From Solibacteraceae bacterium (GTDB lineage Bacteria; Acidobacteriota; Terriglobia; Bryobacterales; Bryobacteraceae): 64,000 nucleotides of DNA. Positions 9,368-18,600 of the stretch are shown here, piece after piece (position 1 is the first letter of the stretch; every line of letters starts with the position of its first letter). Below the pieces are notes generated by a model. It saw only the letters and a program-made list of their open reading frames with translations. It did not search any database and was not told the DNA's origin. Where the stretch lies: contig JAJPJX010000151.1 in NCBI GenBank assembly GCA_021324015.1, positions 62,001 to 126,000 on the forward strand. The letters are read 5' to 3'. The position numbers were made by a program, and so were the translations under genes.

Positions 9368-10465
9368 CTACGCCAGCTTGAATCGCTTCACTTCCATCTT
9401 CTTGTCGTCGAAAACGCCTAGCCCCAGGGCTCCCGCAATCTCGATGTGCTCCACCTGGCAGTTCAGGTAGTGGCTGTCCCGGTCCGGCTTGGAGAGCGCC
9501 ACGGTGGTCATGCCGCTCGCCAGGCGCTTCTCGTCGATGGCTTTCAGTCCGATCTTGTCCATGGCTACCGGATCCGTAGCGAAATACATGGTCTTGTGCT
9601 CCCAGATGTATTTCGGGTTCCCCCCCGGCCCCCCGTGATAGGACGCCTTGATCCCGTCGCAAATGTGCAGTACGGCCTTCTCCCGGATCACCGGCAGATT
9701 CACCACGGACGGGATGAAGATGCCGCAGGCGTTCAGGGTGGGTGTCGTGTGACTCCGGTTCACGTTGTTCACCAACCCGTGCGACATGTTTTTCAGCGCG
9801 ATCGTCACCCCCGCCGACTGATGGTGCTTCAGCACCGGCAGGTTGATCATTTTGTTGATCTGCTTGGTCAGGATCTGGACGGCGTAGGATCGCCGCACGT
9901 GATCGTCCCGGATATCCTGTCCCGGCTTGATCAGAGCCATGTCCAGGTACACATCCGGATCGTAACCGTCCATGGCCAGTTGCACGGTGTCGTATGCCGG
10001 ACAGGCCCAGGTGATGCGCACTCCCGGCGGGATCCACTTCTGAAAACCGCACTCCAGCATTTCGTCGCGGTAGCGGTTGAAGACCACGATATCCCGCGGC
10101 TTCACGCCGGCTTCGCGCAGCCCGTCGATGATCCGGTTGAGCACCAGCGCATCCGAGCACAGTTTCCTGCCGCCCACCGGGCTCACCTTGATGCCCACAA
10201 CGTCGCCCGGCTGCGCAAACACCCGCCACGCGTCCACCCAGTGCGGAGCCCCGGTAAGCTCCAGCATGCCCTTCTCCATCATCTGGCGTACCGGCTGCTC
10301 CTGGTACACGCCGGACAGGATCGAACCGGGGTGTTCCACCGCCACCACGCGGCCCGGATACGGCCCCGGAATTCCCAACTTCGCGCTCTCGGCCTGCGGG
10401 CGGGAATAGGCGGCCATGCCGGAACCGAGGAAAAGTCCCGCGGACAAAAAATCTCGACGCACCAT
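9368..10465 (-). CDS. exported DUF362 domain protein
   Basis: 365 aa with a Tat-like start, MVRRDFLSAGLFLGSGMAAYSRP, so export or membrane association is likely. The body has the DUF362 pattern: QPGDVVGIKVSPVGG, IVVFNRYRDEML and VLKHHQSAGVTIALKNMSHG, then FATDPVAMDKIGL. DUF362 proteins are often found with ferredoxin-like domains, but no Cys cluster is present here and the function is unknown. The start at 10465 is chosen for the signal; an upstream in-frame extension to 10558 runs into the feoA promoter. It is divergent from feoAB, with about 120 nt between the starts. Confidence 0.8.
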   Translation of the reverse strand: MVRRDFLSAGLFLGSGMAAYSRPQAESAKLGIPGPYPGRVVAVEHPGSILSGVYQEQPVRQMMEKGMLELTGAPHWVDAWRVFAQPGDVVGIKVSPVGGRKLCSDALVLNRIIDGLREAGVKPRDIVVFNRYRDEMLECGFQKWIPPGVRITWACPAYDTVQLAMDGYDPDVYLDMALIKPGQDIRDDHVRRSYAVQILTKQINKMINLPVLKHHQSAGVTIALKNMSHGLVNNVNRSHTTPTLNACGIFIPSVVNLPVIREKAVLHICDGIKASYHGGPGGNPKYIWEHKTMYFATDPVAMDKIGLKAIDEKRLASGMTTVALSKPDRDSHYLNCQVEHIEIAGALGLGVFDDKKMEVKRFKLA

Positions 10466-10551
10466 GCCGCTTATTCTAGCGGATTCCTCGCGGCTCTGCG
10501 CCTCCCGGTCGATAGTTGCAACTGACTGGCAGACGGGATGTCCTCCTGGGC

Positions 10552-10580
10552 TTGACATCGGTTGCGCCGCCTTCTATGCT
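10552..10580 (+). promoter_or_regulatory. sigma70-type promoter of feoA, leaderless configuration
   Basis: A perfect -35 TTGACA (10552-10557), a 17-nt spacer and -10 TATGCT (10575-10580). The feoA ATG begins only 6 nt after the -10 box, so transcription would start at or next to the A of the ATG. No Shine-Dalgarno precedes this ATG. I see no clear Fur box across it. Confidence 0.75.
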
Positions 10581-10586
10581 GAAGTC

Positions 10587-10889
10587 ATGTTGCAACTGAG
10601 TGTCAACAAGAGACGCTCGGATGCCCACCGCGGCCCGGCATTGACGGATCTGCGGCGTGGGGAGGCGGGAGTTCTCGACCGGCTCGACCTGCCTGAGGAG
10701 GATGCTCGGCGGCTGATGGAACTGGGCTTTCTGCCAGGCTCCCGCATTACCGCGGCTCTCAGTGCTCCCGGGGGGGATCCCCGGGTCTTTGAAGTGGATG
10801 GGTCGGAAGTGGCGTTGCGGCGTGAGACAGCGGCTCGTTTGAAGCTGCGTTTCGAGCCCGGCTCCCCCGGCATGGTTCCGAACCCGTGA
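10587..10889 (+). CDS. feoA: FeoA-family ferrous iron transport protein
   Basis: 100 aa, an SH3-like small cytoplasmic protein that assists FeoB. The core motif LTDLRRGEAGVLDRLDLPEEDARRL, then MELGFLPGSRI and VALRRETAARLKLR, is the FeoA fold: DLxxGxxG, LGxxPGxxI, LRxxxAxxI. The ATG at 10587 is chosen because a full sigma70 promoter lies immediately upstream; an extended opening to 10416 would run through that promoter and the divergent DUF362 gene start. It overlaps feoB by 4 nt (GTGA). Confidence 0.9.
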   Translation: MLQLSVNKRRSDAHRGPALTDLRRGEAGVLDRLDLPEEDARRLMELGFLPGSRITAALSAPGGDPRVFEVDGSEVALRRETAARLKLRFEPGSPGMVPNP

Positions 10890-12760
10890 GCCTCTGCGCC
10901 GGGTGCCCCTCGGCCGGCGCGCCGGCGGCACCCCCGGCGTCGCCGCTGCGCACAGTGGCCCTGGTGGGCCCGCCCAACTCCGGCAAATCTACGCTGTTCA
11001 ACAAGCTCACCGGGCTGCGCCAGAAGGTGGGCAATTTCCCCGGCGTAACCGTGGAGCGGCATACCGGCCAGGTGTTCTTTCCCGACGGCCGGGCCGTCAC
11101 CCTGATCGACCTTCCGGGCGTCTACAGCCTCTCGCCCCGCTCCGAAGACGAGCAGGTGACTCGCGACGTACTCACCGGCGCCCTGCCGGACACACCCGGG
11201 CCCGATGCCATCCTGCTGATCCTGGACTCCACCATCCTGGCCCGCCAGCTCATGCTCGCGGCTCCCATCCTGTCACTACGCATCCCGACCCTGGTGGTTC
11301 TTAATATGGCCGACGACCTGCGCGGCCGGGGTGGCAGCCTGGACCTGGAAGCCCTGGCCGCCCAACTGGGTGCGCCCGTGGCGCTGGTGAGCGCCCGTCA
11401 GGGCGAGGGCCTGGAGCCTCTCTTCGAGTTCCTGCGCAACAGCGCCGGCGCACCGCAGCCCCGCGAGTTGCCGGTCCTTCAGGAGATTCCCAAGTGCCGC
11501 CAGTGGGCCGGCCGGGTGAGCCACCGCTCCGGCTACCATCCGCCGGCGCCGCCTCTCTGGACCCGGCGCCTGGATGCCCTCTTCCTGCACCCCGTGGCAG
11601 GGCCGCTGACTTTCCTGGGCGTGGTGTTGTTGGTCTTCCAGCTTCTTTTCACCGCCGCCGCGCCTCTCATGGACGGGATCCGTTTCCTGGTGGCCGCCTC
11701 GGGCCGTTGGGTGGAGGCCGTCCTGCCCGCTTCCCCCCTGCGCTCCTTGCTGATAGAAGGCGTGTGGGGCGGAGTTGGCTCGGTGCTCGTCTTCCTGCCG
11801 CAAATCCTGCTGCTGTTCCTCTTCATCGGCGTCCTGGAAGACTCCGGATACCTGGCGCGCGCGGCCCTGATCGCGGACCGCACCATGGCGCGTTTCGGTC
11901 TCCAGGGGAAGTCGTTCATCCCCCTGCTGTCGGCCTATGCCTGTGCCGTTCCCGCGATCCTCTCCACACGCACGATCGAAAATAAACGCGACCGCGTCGC
12001 CACCATCCTGATCGCGCCCTTCATGACCTGCTCCGCGCGGCTCCCCGTCTATACGCTGATCATCGCGGCCTTCCTCCCCAACCGGCCGCTGGCGGGCGCC
12101 TTCCTGGGAACCCGCGCCGCCGCTCTCCTGGGCCTGTATGCGCTGGGCTTCGGCGCCGCCGTCGCCACCGCCCGGATCCTGAAGAGCTCCGTGCTCAAAA
12201 GCGAGCGCACGCCCTTCATGCTGGAGATGCCCTCTTACCGCTGGCCTACCTTTCAGTCCCTGGGCCTGCGGCTGCTCGACCGCGCGAAAGTCTTCCTGCG
12301 CCGCGCCGGCACCGTCATCCTGGCCGTCACCGTGGGGCTGTGGGCCCTGGCGCACCTGCCCCTCCAGGAGGGGAAAGCGCCCCCCATCGAGCAGAGCCTG
12401 GCCGGCACACTGGGCCGCACCATCGAGCCGGCCATCCGCCCGCTGGGATTCAATTGGAAAATCGGCATCGGCCTGGTCACCTCGCTGGCGGCCCGCGAGG
12501 TGATCGTGGGCACCCTCGGCACCATCTACGGCATGGAGGGCGACGCCCACTCCCAAAGCCTGCAACAATCGCTGCAAAAGGACCTGACCCCCGGCGCGGC
12601 CGTGGCTCTGCTGATCTTCTTCGCCTTTGCCATGCAGTGCATCTCTACCATCGCCGTAGTGCGCCGCGAGACCGGCGGCTGGCGCTGGCCCGCCATTCAG
12701 TTCAGCTACATGACTGCCCTTGCCTTCCTGGGCGCCTTCCTGGCCAACCACCTGGTGTGA
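10886..12760 (+). CDS. feoB: ferrous iron transporter FeoB
   Basis: 624 aa, shorter than the roughly 770 aa of E. coli FeoB. An N-terminal CAGCP cysteine pair precedes the G domain: G1 GPPNSGKST (28-36), G3 DLPG (75-78), G4 NMAD (140-143). The spacer helical domain is short, then the inner-membrane part with two nucleoside-gate repeats, including LVFLPQILLLFLFIGVLEDSGYLAR, PLLSAYACAVPAI and TSLAAREVIVGTLGTIYG. It imports Fe(II) across the inner membrane, powered or gated by nucleotide. GTG start overlaps feoA. Its own stop overlaps the GTG of the broken Fur-family gene, so iron uptake and peroxide-defence genes form one run. Confidence 0.95.
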   Translation: MSLCAGCPSAGAPAAPPASPLRTVALVGPPNSGKSTLFNKLTGLRQKVGNFPGVTVERHTGQVFFPDGRAVTLIDLPGVYSLSPRSEDEQVTRDVLTGALPDTPGPDAILLILDSTILARQLMLAAPILSLRIPTLVVLNMADDLRGRGGSLDLEALAAQLGAPVALVSARQGEGLEPLFEFLRNSAGAPQPRELPVLQEIPKCRQWAGRVSHRSGYHPPAPPLWTRRLDALFLHPVAGPLTFLGVVLLVFQLLFTAAAPLMDGIRFLVAASGRWVEAVLPASPLRSLLIEGVWGGVGSVLVFLPQILLLFLFIGVLEDSGYLARAALIADRTMARFGLQGKSFIPLLSAYACAVPAILSTRTIENKRDRVATILIAPFMTCSARLPVYTLIIAAFLPNRPLAGAFLGTRAAALLGLYALGFGAAVATARILKSSVLKSERTPFMLEMPSYRWPTFQSLGLRLLDRAKVFLRRAGTVILAVTVGLWALAHLPLQEGKAPPIEQSLAGTLGRTIEPAIRPLGFNWKIGIGLVTSLAAREVIVGTLGTIYGMEGDAHSQSLQQSLQKDLTPGAAVALLIFFAFAMQCISTIAVVRRETGGWRWPAIQFSYMTALAFLGAFLANHLV

Positions 12761-13130
12761 GAAGCCGCGTCCGCCTGCGTCCCACGCCGCGGAGACACGA
12801 CGTGCTGGATGATCTCGCCCGGCGGCCGGTGCAGGCCACCACAGCCACCCCCGGATCTCGCGGGCAACCGTCTACAATAGTCTTCGTGAACTTGTTCGGG
12901 CCGGACTGGCGCGCGAAGTCCCCGGCGAGGGCAAAGCCGCGCACCACGATGCCAACCTCGAACCCCACTATCTCGTCTGCGGCCGCTACGCAGGGGTCAA
13001 AGACATTGGCTGGTTCGAAATCCCGGTCCCATCCCGGCGTGCCGCCATCGGACCTCGGGCCGTTCGCGATCTCGAAGTAATTTTCCACGGGCTCTGCACC
13101 CGCTGCGCGGGCGCGCCCAAAAAAGACTGA
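12757..13130 (+). pseudogene. Fur/PerR-family regulator gene, frameshifted with a short internal deletion
   Basis: A GTG inside the feoB stop begins MRSRVRLRPTPRRHDVLDDLARRPVQA, the winged-helix start of a Fur-family protein. From about 12831 the homology continues in another frame: HPRISRATVYNSLREL (recognition helix), RAGLAREVPGEGKAAHHDAN, EPHYLVCGRY, then LEVIFHGLCTRCAG and a TGA at 13128. Neither frame alone encodes a complete protein, and about 12-15 residues of the helix between the two parts are missing. The first zinc pair reads C-G-R-Y, so one of the four structural Cys is lost as well. PerR-like genes commonly sit beside rubrerythrin, so a peroxide or iron regulator is the likely ancestor. 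Which of PerR, Fur or Zur it was cannot be told. Confidence 0.82.
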
Positions 13131-13159
13131 AGTTTTCGGAAAGCTATCGGAGCACACAT

Positions 13160-13579
<420 letters not shown>

Positions 13580-13585
13580 TCTCGC

Positions 13586-13612
13586 GGGCGCCGCTCCGGC
13601 GGCGCCCCTTTT
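13586..13612 (+). terminator. intrinsic terminator or attenuating hairpin after rubrerythrin
   Basis: A perfect 9-bp stem, GGGCGCCGC / GCGGCGCCC, with a TCCG tetraloop and the tail CTTTT. The T-run is short, so partial read-through into the downstream Fe-S gene is plausible. Confidence 0.7.
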
Positions 13613-13635
13613 CCCGCGGGTTCCCGAGACACGCC

Positions 13636-14967
13636 ATGGACATCATCAAAGGCCGGCCCACCGCCGGCCTGACCTACGATCCCAACAACCCGGTCTACTG
13701 GGACAGCGCTGCCCTGAAGCTGGAGATCGATCGGATCTTCGAGATCTGCCACGGCTGCCGGCTCTGTTTCAACCTCTGCCCGTCCTTCCCGGAGTTGTTC
13801 AACGCCGTGGACCGGCGCGACGGCCAGGTGCGCGCGCTTTCGACAGAGGAGACCGGCCGCGTCATCGACACCTGCTATCAATGCAAGGTGTGCTATGTGA
13901 AGTGCCCGTACACGCCCGATGACGGACACGAGTTCCAACTGGATTTCCCCCGCCTGCTCCTGCGCGCCAACGCGCTGCGCAAGAAGGAGCGGGGTCTAGA
14001 TGTGAGGTCGCGCCTGCTGGCCCGCCCGGAATTGCTCGGCCGGCTAGGCGGCATGGCCCCCGGATTGGCGAATTGGGTCAACCGCCAACCGTTTCTGCGG
14101 CGCCTGGCCGAAGCTACAGTCGGCATCCATCGCGAAAAGAAGCTGCCCGAATTCCAGGCCGAAACCTTTTCCGCCTGGCTGAAAAAACAACCCGCGCCGG
14201 CCGGCCGTTCCCAAGCCGCGCTCTTCGTCACCTGCTTCGTGGAGCATTACAATCCGCAGATCGCCAAAGACGCGGTCGCCGTCTTTGCGAAAAGCGGCAT
14301 AGCGCTCACCTGCCCCAAGCAGAATTGCTGCGGGATGCCCGCGCTCGAATCCGGGGACGTGCAACTGGCCAAACAGCTCGCCGCGGCCAATGTGGAGTCG
14401 CTCCTTCCGTCCGTCGAACAGGGGATGCAGATCGTGGCCATCAACCCGTCCTGCTCCTACATGCTGCGAAAAGAGTACCGCGAGCTGGTCGGCACTCCGG
14501 CCGCCCGGCGCGTAGCCGCCGCCACTAGGGACGTGTGCGAATTCCTGTTCGAGCTGAAGAAAGCGGGCAGGTTCAACCGGGACTTTCGCTCCACGCCGGG
14601 CTCCATCGCCTATCATCTGCCCTGCCATCTCAAGGCCCAGAACATAGGCTATCGCTCGCGCGACATGCTGAAAACCATCCCCGGCGCGCAGGTCCGCCTG
14701 GTGGACCAGTGCAGCGCGCACGACGGCACGTTCGCCATGAAGAAAGAGTTCTTCCCGCTATCGCTGCTGGCCGGCGCTAAGGCCTTCGAGGAGATGCGCG
14801 GCACGCCTTCCGATGTGATGGCTACGGATTGCCCTCTCGCCGCGATCCATTTCGACCAGGCGATCGGAACGCGGCCCGTGCACCCCATTCAGGTGCTGGC
14901 GCGCGCTTACCAGCCGGACGGCTTCTCCACCCCGCTGCCTCAAAAGGACACCGATGCAGCCCATTGA
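13636..14967 (+). CDS. GlpC/HdrD-like Fe-S oxidoreductase of the rubrerythrin cluster
   Basis: 443 aa. Two [4Fe-4S] motifs lie near the N-terminus: C38, C41, C44, C48 (CHGCRLCFNLCP) and C80, C83, C86, C90 (CYQCKVCYVKCP). These are followed by two CCG-type domains: CPKQNCCGMP, which is intact, and PCHLKAQ plus DQCSAHDGT, whose CC pair is reduced to a single Cys. Size and order match the anaerobic glycerol-3-phosphate dehydrogenase subunit C family, but no glpA or glpB is here. Location between rubrerythrin and DUF3501 is a recurring arrangement, so an electron-transfer role in peroxide reduction is inferred. The ATG at 13636 gives the family N-terminus. It overlaps DUF3501 by 14 nt. Confidence 0.87.
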   Translation: MDIIKGRPTAGLTYDPNNPVYWDSAALKLEIDRIFEICHGCRLCFNLCPSFPELFNAVDRRDGQVRALSTEETGRVIDTCYQCKVCYVKCPYTPDDGHEFQLDFPRLLLRANALRKKERGLDVRSRLLARPELLGRLGGMAPGLANWVNRQPFLRRLAEATVGIHREKKLPEFQAETFSAWLKKQPAPAGRSQAALFVTCFVEHYNPQIAKDAVAVFAKSGIALTCPKQNCCGMPALESGDVQLAKQLAAANVESLLPSVEQGMQIVAINPSCSYMLRKEYRELVGTPAARRVAAATRDVCEFLFELKKAGRFNRDFRSTPGSIAYHLPCHLKAQNIGYRSRDMLKTIPGAQVRLVDQCSAHDGTFAMKKEFFPLSLLAGAKAFEEMRGTPSDVMATDCPLAAIHFDQAIGTRPVHPIQVLARAYQPDGFSTPLPQKDTDAAH

Positions 14968-15523
14968 TATCTCCGAAATCAAGAACATCGCCGACTACGA
15001 ACTGGAGCGCGAGCGCTGGAGGCCGCAGATTCTCGCCCTCAAGGATCGCCGCCGTATCCGCCTCGGCGATCATCTGACCTTTCTGTTCGAAAACCGCGAG
15101 ACCGTGCGCTACCAGATCCAGGAGATGATGCGCATCGAACGCATCGTCAAGCCCGCGGACATCGCCCACGAGGTAAAGACGTACAACGAGTTGGTCCCGG
15201 CTCCGGGCGAGCTCTCCGCGTCGCTGTTCATCGAATACACGACCCCCGAAGAGCGTGCCGTCAAGCTGCGGGAACTGCTGGGCCTGGACCGGCACATCTG
15301 GCTCGAAGTCTCCGCCGCGGGCCGCACGCCAGCCCTGTTCGACAACCGCCAGATCGCCACGGACCGCCTCAGCTCCGTTCAGTACATCAAGTTCCGCATG
15401 AGCCCCGCGCAGATCCGGCACTGGCGCGAGGGGGCCTCCCTCATCGCCGATCATCCGTGCTACCAGGCTGTGCGCTTTCTCACGCCGGCCGAACTCGCGG
15501 ACCTCGCGGCAGACTTCGTGTAA
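14954..15523 (+). CDS. DUF3501 family protein
   Basis: 189 aa, soluble and without signal peptide. Begins MQPIDISEIKNIADYELERE and contains RRIRLGDHLTFLFENRET and RYQIQEMMRIERI, the characteristic core of DUF3501. Function is unknown. Its fixed company with rubrerythrin and a GlpC-like Fe-S protein suggests a part in the same oxidative-stress electron chain. The start overlaps the upstream gene, so it is the last gene of this run. The 175 nt that follow, before the first Oar-type receptor, hold no gene. Confidence 0.88.
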   Translation: MQPIDISEIKNIADYELERERWRPQILALKDRRRIRLGDHLTFLFENRETVRYQIQEMMRIERIVKPADIAHEVKTYNELVPAPGELSASLFIEYTTPEERAVKLRELLGLDRHIWLEVSAAGRTPALFDNRQIATDRLSSVQYIKFRMSPAQIRHWREGASLIADHPCYQAVRFLTPAELADLAADFV

Positions 15524-15590
15524 GCGCTTTCAGCGAACAGCGGTCAGCCCTTGGCTTTCCCGCGATTCCAGGGGATCTGTGCTCAAACTC

Positions 15591-15603
15591 ACCCTGACAG
15601 GGT
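15591..15603. repeat. short palindrome upstream of the first Oar-type receptor
   Basis: ACCCTG-A-CAGGGT, perfect 6-bp arms with a 1-nt centre, about 95 nt before the receptor start. A second short pair, CCGAA/TTCGG, lies at 15628-15642. Either could be an operator; neither matches a site I recognise. Confidence 0.35.
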
Positions 15604-15698
15604 AAATCCACTCACCTTGCGGGAACGCCGAAAGAAATTCGGTGTTATTTTAGGGAAAACAAGGTAGTCTTTTTCGGCTTTATCCGCAAGGAGGGAGT

Positions 15699-18600
15699 GT
15701 GAGTAGATCCATCACAGACTGGCAGAAACTCGTGTGCCTGCTGGCGTGTGCGGTGCCCTTGGCCGCGCAAACCGCCGACACCGGAATCCTTGGAAAGGTC
15801 ACGGACCCCACCGGCGCCGCGGTCGCCGGAGCGAAGGTCACCATCACCCAGCCGGCTTCGGGGCTCTCCCGCTCGGCGGCCACCGGCGCCGACGGCACTT
15901 ACGAGGTTCGCTACCTGGTTCCCGGCCAATACACGCTATCCGTGGAGGCCGCCGGCTTCCGCGCGGAACGCCGCGCTGATGTGGTCATTCAAATCGCGCA
16001 GTTGGCCCGGGTCAACTTCAGCCTGCAAATCGGGGAGGTGCGGGAGGTCGTGTCGGTCACCGGCGCGCCGCCGCTGCTGCAAACCCAGAACGCCACGTTG
16101 GGAGAAGTGGTGGGCTCGGAACGCACCGTGAACCTGCCGCTGAACGGCCGGAAGTTCAACGACCTGGCTATCCTCACCCCCGGCGTTCAGGTCTCCGATA
16201 CGGATTTGCATTCGTCGAGCACGGCTGGGTCCACCATCGCGGTCAACGGCGGACGCGACATCTGGGGGCAGGTCAATGTGGACGGCATCACCATGGTCAA
16301 CAACCGCCACAACTACGTCAATATTTTCCCTTCCGTGGACGCTATCCAGGAATTCAAGGTGCAGACGGGGAATTACTCCGCTGAATATGGGGGAAACGCC
16401 GGGGCGAACGTCAACATCCAAATCAAGTCCGGGAGTAATGAATATCACGGTGACGTCTTTGATTTCCTGCGGAATACCGCGCTGGACGCAAGGAACTATT
16501 TCTCACCCTCGCCGCTGCCGCAGAACATCCTGAAGCAAAACCAGTTCGGGGCCACCTTCGGGGGACCCATTCGGAGGGATAAAACCTTCTTCTTCGCGAG
16601 CTACGAAGGACTTCGCTCCATTAGCGAGGCGCCCGGATCGGCCGTGGTGCCTACCGCGGCGCAGCGGGCCGGGAACTTCTCCGCCAGCGCCGCCCCGGTC
16701 ATCGACCCGCTTTCGGGTGCGCCCTTCCCGGGTAACATCATCCCGGCCAACCGCCTGAACCCGGTGGCTCTCAACCTGATCAATCAATACATGCCCATGC
16801 CGAACCAGCCCGGAACGGTTAACTATGCCGGCGTCTCGCTCGGCGACCTGACCATGCACCAGGGGATAATTCGCATCGACCAGTACTTCAGCGAGAAGGA
16901 CCAGCTCTTTGTGCACTACATCGGCGCGCATCGCAGCTTCCCGGACACGAACCTCAACCCCTTTTTCACCTTCACGGGCGACTACCCGATGAACAACTTC
17001 CAGGCCCAATACATCCACACTTTCAGCCCCACCATGCTGAATGAGTTCCGCACCGGCTTCAACCTGGAAGACGTCTCGCAGCTCAGCACGCGCACGAACA
17101 CGAACTTCACCATCGAGTCGTTGGGCATCAACGGCATGAAGGTCGGCGGTCCGAACGGAAGGCCGCTGCGGGCGGACGAGGAGGGCTTCCCGCTGTTGAA
17201 CATTGCCGGCTACCTGGGGATGGGCGACAGCCGGGCCTCTTCGAACCTGGACAACAGCCGCACCTATCAGTTTGTCGATAACCTCACCTGGATCAAAGGG
17301 GCCCACACCCTGAAGTTCGGGGGCGACATCCGCACGGTCCGGGACGACGCCACCACGAACAACTGGCCATTCGGCAGCATCTCGTTCACCGGGGACATTT
17401 CCGGGAATCCGGCGGCCGCCTACATGCTCGGCTATCCGCGCACCGTCCTGACCCCGGAAGGCGTGCCCATTACTGCCGCCCGCCAGTGGCGCTCCGCCTT
17501 CTATGCCCAGGACGACTGGCGGGTGACCTCGCGCCTGACCCTCAACCTGGGGCTGCGCTACGACCTCTTCAACCCTCCGCAGGACGTGAACAACGTCATC
17601 CGCACGTTGCAGTTTCCGCCGGGCCAGCCGCCGCAGTTCTATCCGGCAGCCGGGCAACCGCTGGACCCCGTTTGGAACGTGAACCACAAGGATTTCAGCC
17701 CGCGCGTAGGCTTTGCCTTCAGCCTGGACAACAACACGGTGGTGCGCGGCGGCTACGGGATGTTTTACTTCGGCGGCCAGTTCGACAACCTCAACATCCT
17801 GCAATTGAACCCGCCCACCGCCGGCAGCCTCACCATCATCAACCCGGCTACCAACCCCATCGCCACTATCCAGGACCCGGTCCCCGCCGCGCTCTATCCG
17901 GCGAACCCGATTTTCAACGCTGTCACTCTACCCCCGGGCCAATACCATCCGGACACTAACGTGCAGGACTGGAACCTACAAGTGTCCCGCCAGTTTGGCG
18001 CCAACGTGCTGGAGGTAGGATACGTGGGTAGCAAGGGGACGCACGTCGATAGCAGCCTGCAAAACTGGAACCAGCCGGACCCGGGGCCCGGCGTCATCCA
18101 GTCGCGTCGCCCGTACCCCGAATTCGCCCGCATCCGCATGGAGTACTTCTACGCCAACACCTTGTACAATTCGCTCCAGGCCCGCTTCGAGCACCGCTTC
18201 ACCAAGGGCCTGAGCTTTACGGCGGCCTACACCTTCTCGCACCTCATCGACAATGCGGTGCAGACCATGAACTCCGGGGGCTGCGGCTGTCAGAACCCGC
18301 GCGACCTTTCCTCGGAGCGCGCCAGCAGCAACTTCGATCAGCGCCACCGGCTGGTGATGGGCTACGTCTGGGAGTTGCCGCTCGGCAAGAACCTCAAGGG
18401 GGTGGCAGGCGCTCTGGCGGGAGGGTGGTCGCTGGACGGGATTGTCACGCTGGCGAGCGGCAGTCCGTTCAACATCCTGGAAAGCTTTGACAGCCAGAAC
18501 AACGACGGCATCTGGGAGCGGCCCAACCTGGTGCCCGGCCAACAGGTGACGATTGGCACGCAGAATCCCTCCCTCTGGTTCAACACCGCGGCTTTTGCGC

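Follow-up and report, generated by a model that had tools for sequence, protein, structure and literature searches.

We analyzed a 64,000-nt stretch of DNA (the window) that carries, on the forward strand, a run of genes in the order feoA-feoB-[perR remnant]-rubrerythrin-Fe-S oxidoreductase-DUF3501. The ferrous-iron uptake genes come first: feoA (10587-10889; Pfam FeoA, E 2.6e-14) is followed by an intact feoB (10886-12760; TIGR00437, 462 bits against a cut-off of 315.65, with relatives matching to residue 624). The last three genes encode a rubrerythrin of 139 aa in which no rubredoxin domain was found (13160-13579; Pfam PF02915, E 8.3e-31, below the NCBIfam equivalog cut-off), a GlpC-like Fe-S oxidoreductase identified by profile matches, whose true start may lie further in (13576-14967), and a DUF3501 protein (14954-15523; Pfam PF12007, E 7.9e-57). 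Every gene but the remnant reads as intact, and the profile matches to feoB, rbr, RFO and DUF3501 bear out the preliminary description of the adjoining genes as undamaged. Judged by gene content and order, the three genes 3' of the remnant resemble the aerobic-type rubrerythrin cluster (rubrerythrin without a rubredoxin domain, RFO and DUF3501) set out in PMC5114695, the GlpC-like protein being the RFO; searching the main text of that paper, we found no mention of PerR, the Fur family or a regulator. Of 67 named rbr loci with >3 kb of downstream sequence (drawn from the best 80 of the matches listed), 59 show the same rbr-RFO-DUF3501 order, and the closest rubrerythrin in the contig scan, among the matches listed, is 92% identical.

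The segment between the two groups of genes (12757-13130, + strand) is a broken PerR-type gene of the Fur family, as judged from frames, homology, tree, alignment and Pfam, and its translation places two halves of one protein in different frames. The N-terminal part (12757-12840; MRSRVRLRPTPRRHDVLDDLARRPVQATTA, with the GTG read as Met) is truncated at its 5' end and begins, as the preliminary description had it, at a GTG (12757-12759) that overlaps the feoB stop codon (TGA, 12758-12760). Its frame stays open for 107 codons. The C-terminal part (12852-13130) extends from the recognition helix to the last CxxC, reads RISRATVYN...CTRCAGAPKKD and ends at a TGA (13128-13130) just 5' of the rubrerythrin gene; homology begins at 12852 rather than at about 12831, where it had been placed before. 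Scanning 12852-13130 revealed no in-frame ATG, GTG or TTG. Taken alone, this part scores just below the curated cut-off of Pfam FUR (21.1 bits against 23.1, E 3.6e-4). The likeness is not due to chance, because intact genes of relatives match it at up to 57% identity (E 6.4e-28). The C-terminal part is free of stops over 92 codons, and simulated neutral drift of 0.2-0.3 changes per site keeps such a frame open in 41-28% of runs. Its third-position G+C (0.69) equals that of feoA (0.69), while feoB, rbr, the glpC-like gene and DUF3501 range from 0.76 to 0.87; this lower value is a weak hint at most.

To measure the damage, we gathered matches to the C-terminal part from 237 family genomes and read the DNA of the matches; 90 genomes had a match at E 1e-12 or better. 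The resulting alignment holds 95 distinct intact proteins (94 family copies plus a single additional row from the class). Of the 29 readable columns with a conservation of 95% or more, the remnant departs at 7, and it lacks three more such columns. At the same columns, 69 intact rows show no departure, 19 show one and the worst shows six. By the count alone, the remnant is thus not far from the worst intact row; the six departures in that row, T to S and E to D among them, leave all metal ligands untouched. Three columns that are invariant in 95 of 95 proteins are changed in the remnant, namely the H37 equivalent, the third His of HHH and the second Cys of the first CxxC.

These three changes can be read directly in the DNA. 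We take the ligand numbers (H37, D85, H91, H93 and D104) to be those of Bacillus subtilis PerR, their places here being set by alignment; H37 was placed via the intact paralogue against B. subtilis PerR 2fe3. The H37-equivalent codon (12832-12834, + strand) is CAG (Gln), and the H91-x-H93 motif (12966-12971, + strand) is one codon short, reading PHYLVC where relatives have HHHFIC. Asp is kept at the D85 and D104 places, but with the changes at H37 and in HxH the set of regulatory ligands is incomplete. In the structural zinc site, the first pair has become CxxY while the second CxxC is intact: the codon at 12987-12989 (+ strand) is TAC (Tyr), as already reported, and is Cys in all 95 relatives. 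The winged-helix DNA-binding domain is no longer continuous. In 94 of 95 relatives, the stretch running from H37 to RxSRAT measures 16 codons (48 nt), and in the remnant it measures 20 nt, a net loss of 28 nt or ~9 codons, somewhat less than the 12-15 residues first estimated, with the deletion junction and frame change at 12841-12851 (+ strand). In the alignment, the remnant protein also begins ~8 residues later than the intact paralogue (L002), and feoB precedes it. The altered H37 equivalent, the missing HxH codon and the loss of the 5' end and operator go beyond the preliminary description. Judging from these lesions, a working PerR cannot be made from the remnant locus.

A phylogenetic tree built from 63 Fur-family rows groups the remnant with 15 others in a 16-row clade of support 100/95. 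The genes of these 15 rows adjoin katG (ten, including C54 of the same genome), ahpC (L004, L005 and L016), rubrerythrin (L041) or a ferritin-like gene (L017), where the ahpC and ferritin neighbor names come from Pfam. The same holds for the 95 intact clade members, of which 58 adjoin katG, 25 ahpC, 3 rbr and 3 a ferritin-like gene (89 of 95), with none of these found beside the remaining six. The remnant therefore shares its descent with PerR genes linked to peroxide defense. Given these neighbors, and because B. subtilis PerR 2fe3 is the solved structure that the intact paralogue resembles most closely in sequence (E 8e-22), the remnant most likely descends from a PerR and not from a Fur that senses iron. 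The idea that Fur or PerR normally controls exactly these neighbors fits rubrerythrin, which three of the 95 clade members adjoin. It is not supported for feoAB: we found no PerR box before feoA, and among 29 relative feoB loci, with flanks of up to ~1.5 kb, neither a Fur-family gene nor rbr lies beside feoB. These 29 loci are drawn from the 51 other genomes that had a feoB match. Among the loci compared, many with short flanks, feoB lies beside the rubrerythrin module only in the window, and the feoB-perR-rbr order that had been expected in close relatives occurs at none of the 29 feoB loci.

A local Fur-family gene is not a constant companion of the rubrerythrin module. It lies just upstream of rbr in 24 of 78 loci (best 80 of the matches listed), and directly before rbr in five of the nine relatives with a close rbr, the other four having none. 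Those upstream of rbr in four other relatives (L026/L038, L034, L037 and L039) belong to a different clade. The local regulator of the module seems to have been lost or gained more than once. At L035, L036, L040 and L042, rbr-RFO-DUF3501 runs have no upstream Fur-family gene, and no PerR box precedes rbr in any of the four.

The preliminary description also held that the repressor had been lost. This is correct for the remnant copy and incorrect for the genome, which still has, next to katG, an intact perR from the clade of the remnant (G000:C54, L002) as well as a Fur-like gene on contig C17; a FUR-family search of the whole genome listed two intact genes elsewhere and not the remnant. The second PerR that had been recommended as a check was thus found, and because PerR is not lost from the genome, the regulatory effect is smaller than first held. 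The C-terminal part of the remnant is 49% identical to this katG-linked PerR, which, unlike the remnant, is intact, has all ligands, carries an exact operator and adjoins katG.

We identified the candidate PerR operator as a palindrome, TTAGAnnTAnTCTAA, near the -10 element 5' of perR in relatives. With at most one mismatch, it occurs upstream of 71 of the 95 intact clade members and in 0 of 1900 base-shuffled stretches. It is not universal, because the other 24 intact genes show two or more mismatches. A genome-wide count of exact sites gives a single one in the genome under study, at the perR next to katG. Reversing the pattern as a control likewise gives one exact match, so that it is the place of the operator match and not the count that is telling. 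On both strands, no PerR box within three mismatches lies near feoA, the remnant or rbr, and the window elsewhere holds three matches against 4.5 expected. The best + strand matches have five mismatches before feoA, five before rbr and six before the remnant (12607-12787), so that the remnant lacks a recognizable operator; a site of at most one mismatch is also missing from 24 intact members. In a relative (G024:C11, L193), the operator of the katG-linked perR is likewise unrecognizable (six mismatches at best), while the rbr-linked perR of the same genome keeps an exact one.

The regulatory signals that we did find lie upstream of feoA. A promoter-pattern search returned a sigma-70-like promoter (TTGACA-17-TATGCT, 10552-10580, + strand), one of two such sites in 10300-15700 (10552 and 14225; the mean of shuffles is 0.4) and the only one between 10300 and rbr. 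Similar promoters precede feoA in relatives. Adjoining its -10 element and overlapping the feoA start codon is a candidate feo operator, GTTGCAACTGAGTGTCAAC (10589-10607, + strand), which recurs 5' of feoA in relatives; a second, weaker copy, GTTGCAACTGACTGGCAGA, with five mismatches to the motif, lies at 10515-10533 (+ strand). The shared palindrome, TTGCAACTnAGTnTCAA, is common at the feoA start of many relatives (10589-10607 in the window, L255-L283 upstream of feoA). Its best match has at most five mismatches in 24 of 30 sequences and 6-7 in the remaining six, whereas five or fewer are reached by 4 of 1500 shuffles; the motif is favored here by having been derived from the same sequences that were scored. 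Part of this conservation may be coding, because the palindrome overlaps the feoA start in many relatives. In L275, L278 and L280, it appears to be non-coding, because the frame through it, by eye, soon meets a stop. The exact 17-base core occurs once in the genome under study, together with five further sites with two mismatches (a control pattern gives one), beside which, by eye, no iron-uptake or Fur gene is obvious.

From these observations we propose, with good confidence, that a redundant rbr-linked PerR duplicate decayed at 12757-13130, and that the rubrerythrin module came to lie behind the feoA promoter through a rearrangement. We infer the following course of events. The duplicate would have become dispensable next to the katG-linked PerR, and a rearrangement would have fused the end of feoB with the opening codons of perR, removing the promoter, operator and first residues of perR. 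The net 28-nt deletion broke both the winged helix and the frame, and metal-site residues are lost as well. Because no PerR box or promoter-like site lies just before rbr, the intact rubrerythrin, RFO and DUF3501 genes are now most likely read, with feoAB, from the feoA promoter. The palindrome at feoA suggests that a different regulator acts on this promoter, perhaps the Fur-like protein encoded on contig C17, while the remaining PerR probably still controls katG in response to peroxide. Constitutive or rewired control, which the preliminary description had proposed, is plausible on these grounds, and rewiring to the feo promoter would be the better guess; that description is thus supported as regards decay and in part as regards its interpretation.

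More tentatively, and with slightly more doubt than belief, we suggest that the locus records a natural regulon switch, in which the local PerR and its operator were lost and a rubrerythrin peroxidase module was handed to the ferrous-iron uptake operon. If so, a peroxide scavenger would be made whenever Fe2+ is imported, instead of when peroxide appears. The locus would catch one step in the loss of bacterial control circuits, in which the target genes appear to have changed promoter too, and the analysis yields two candidate operators for this bacterial family, that of PerR and that of feo. In other respects the decay is of an ordinary kind, and its regulatory twist is modest. Among the papers listed on PerR, rubrerythrin and DUF3501, full texts aside, we found no description of the remnant locus or of these operators.

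One may ask whether only a redundant gene was lost while the rubrerythrin module stayed under peroxide control in trans by the katG-linked PerR. The genome does encode this intact PerR of the same clade, and the four close relatives without a Fur-family gene upstream of rbr lend the idea some weight. We nevertheless consider it unlikely, as the best PerR-box-like matches before rbr or feoA (five mismatches) are poor and the single exact site of the genome is at katG/perR.

Less probable still is an assembly or sequencing error that hides a gene intact in the organism. The genome is a draft of 214 contigs, the lesions rest on one assembly and the relatives compared include no genome of the same genus. 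Against this, the gap is a net 28 nt and not one base, and the adjoining genes read as intact. Several inactivating changes also stand apart from the break in the frame (the substitutions at invariant metal ligands, the lost HxH codon, the cut 5' end and the missing operator). Such an error, which the preliminary description had left as its alternative, is therefore unlikely as the sole cause, and the damage is very probably real.

It is slightly more improbable still that the shortened product is active, as a frame-shifted fusion or as a C-terminal fragment that poisons PerR dimers. The 107-codon open N-terminal frame would allow a fusion, and a FUR2 of Desulfovibrio desulfuricans without a DNA-binding domain has been proposed, in PMC545781, to be non-functional or to form inactive heterodimers. 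The C-terminal part of the remnant lacks a start codon, however, its invariant metal ligands are lost, and all 94 intact family copies have the domain in one frame. Programmed frameshifting near 12830 that yields a working regulator, for which nothing speaks beyond the meeting of two frames, can be practically dismissed, as part of the DNA-binding domain is absent from the DNA itself and relatives need no shift. On these grounds we rejected assembly error, a programmed frameshift and a functional fragment.

Three systems may be set beside the decayed duplicate that we propose. In a relative (G024:C46, L041/L148), a perR of the same clade lies directly 5' of rbr-RFO-DUF3501; unlike the remnant, it is intact and has its operator, and no feoAB was found upstream. 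A perR-rbr-roo operon with a palindrome on its -10 element is described for Geobacter in PMC545781. According to PMC8546684, Clostridioides difficile 630 delta-erm has an inactive PerR in a rubrerythrin operon, with rbr1 constitutively derepressed; that case involves one perR SNP in a laboratory strain, whereas the remnant has suffered a deletion, has lost its operator and has a new operon upstream.

Where a katG-linked PerR persists, a second perR copy seems liable to break. Of the 90 family genomes in which a match reaches E 1e-12, 83 have one perR match and seven have two, a comparison that sees only copies whose C-terminal part attains this threshold. A broken copy occurs in three of the seven two-copy genomes (the window remnant, G197:C125 at L189 and G243:C43 at L188) and in none of the 83 one-copy genomes, all of which have the full-length domain in one frame. 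Each of the three genomes with a broken copy retains an intact katG-linked one. The difference gives a Fisher p of 3e-4, post hoc and with kinship ignored, or of 5e-3 if G243 is counted as intact because its ferritin-like neighbor is also frame-broken. The other two broken copies differ in form. At L189 (4598-4912), an in-frame internal deletion takes much of the DNA-binding domain and leaves the operator and the metal-binding half, with ahpC downstream; this copy could be a pseudogene or a dimer poison. At L188 (4515-5153), a perR with a frame break keeps its operator and precedes a ferritin-like gene that is itself broken into frames, which may reflect the decay of a whole block or assembly errors.
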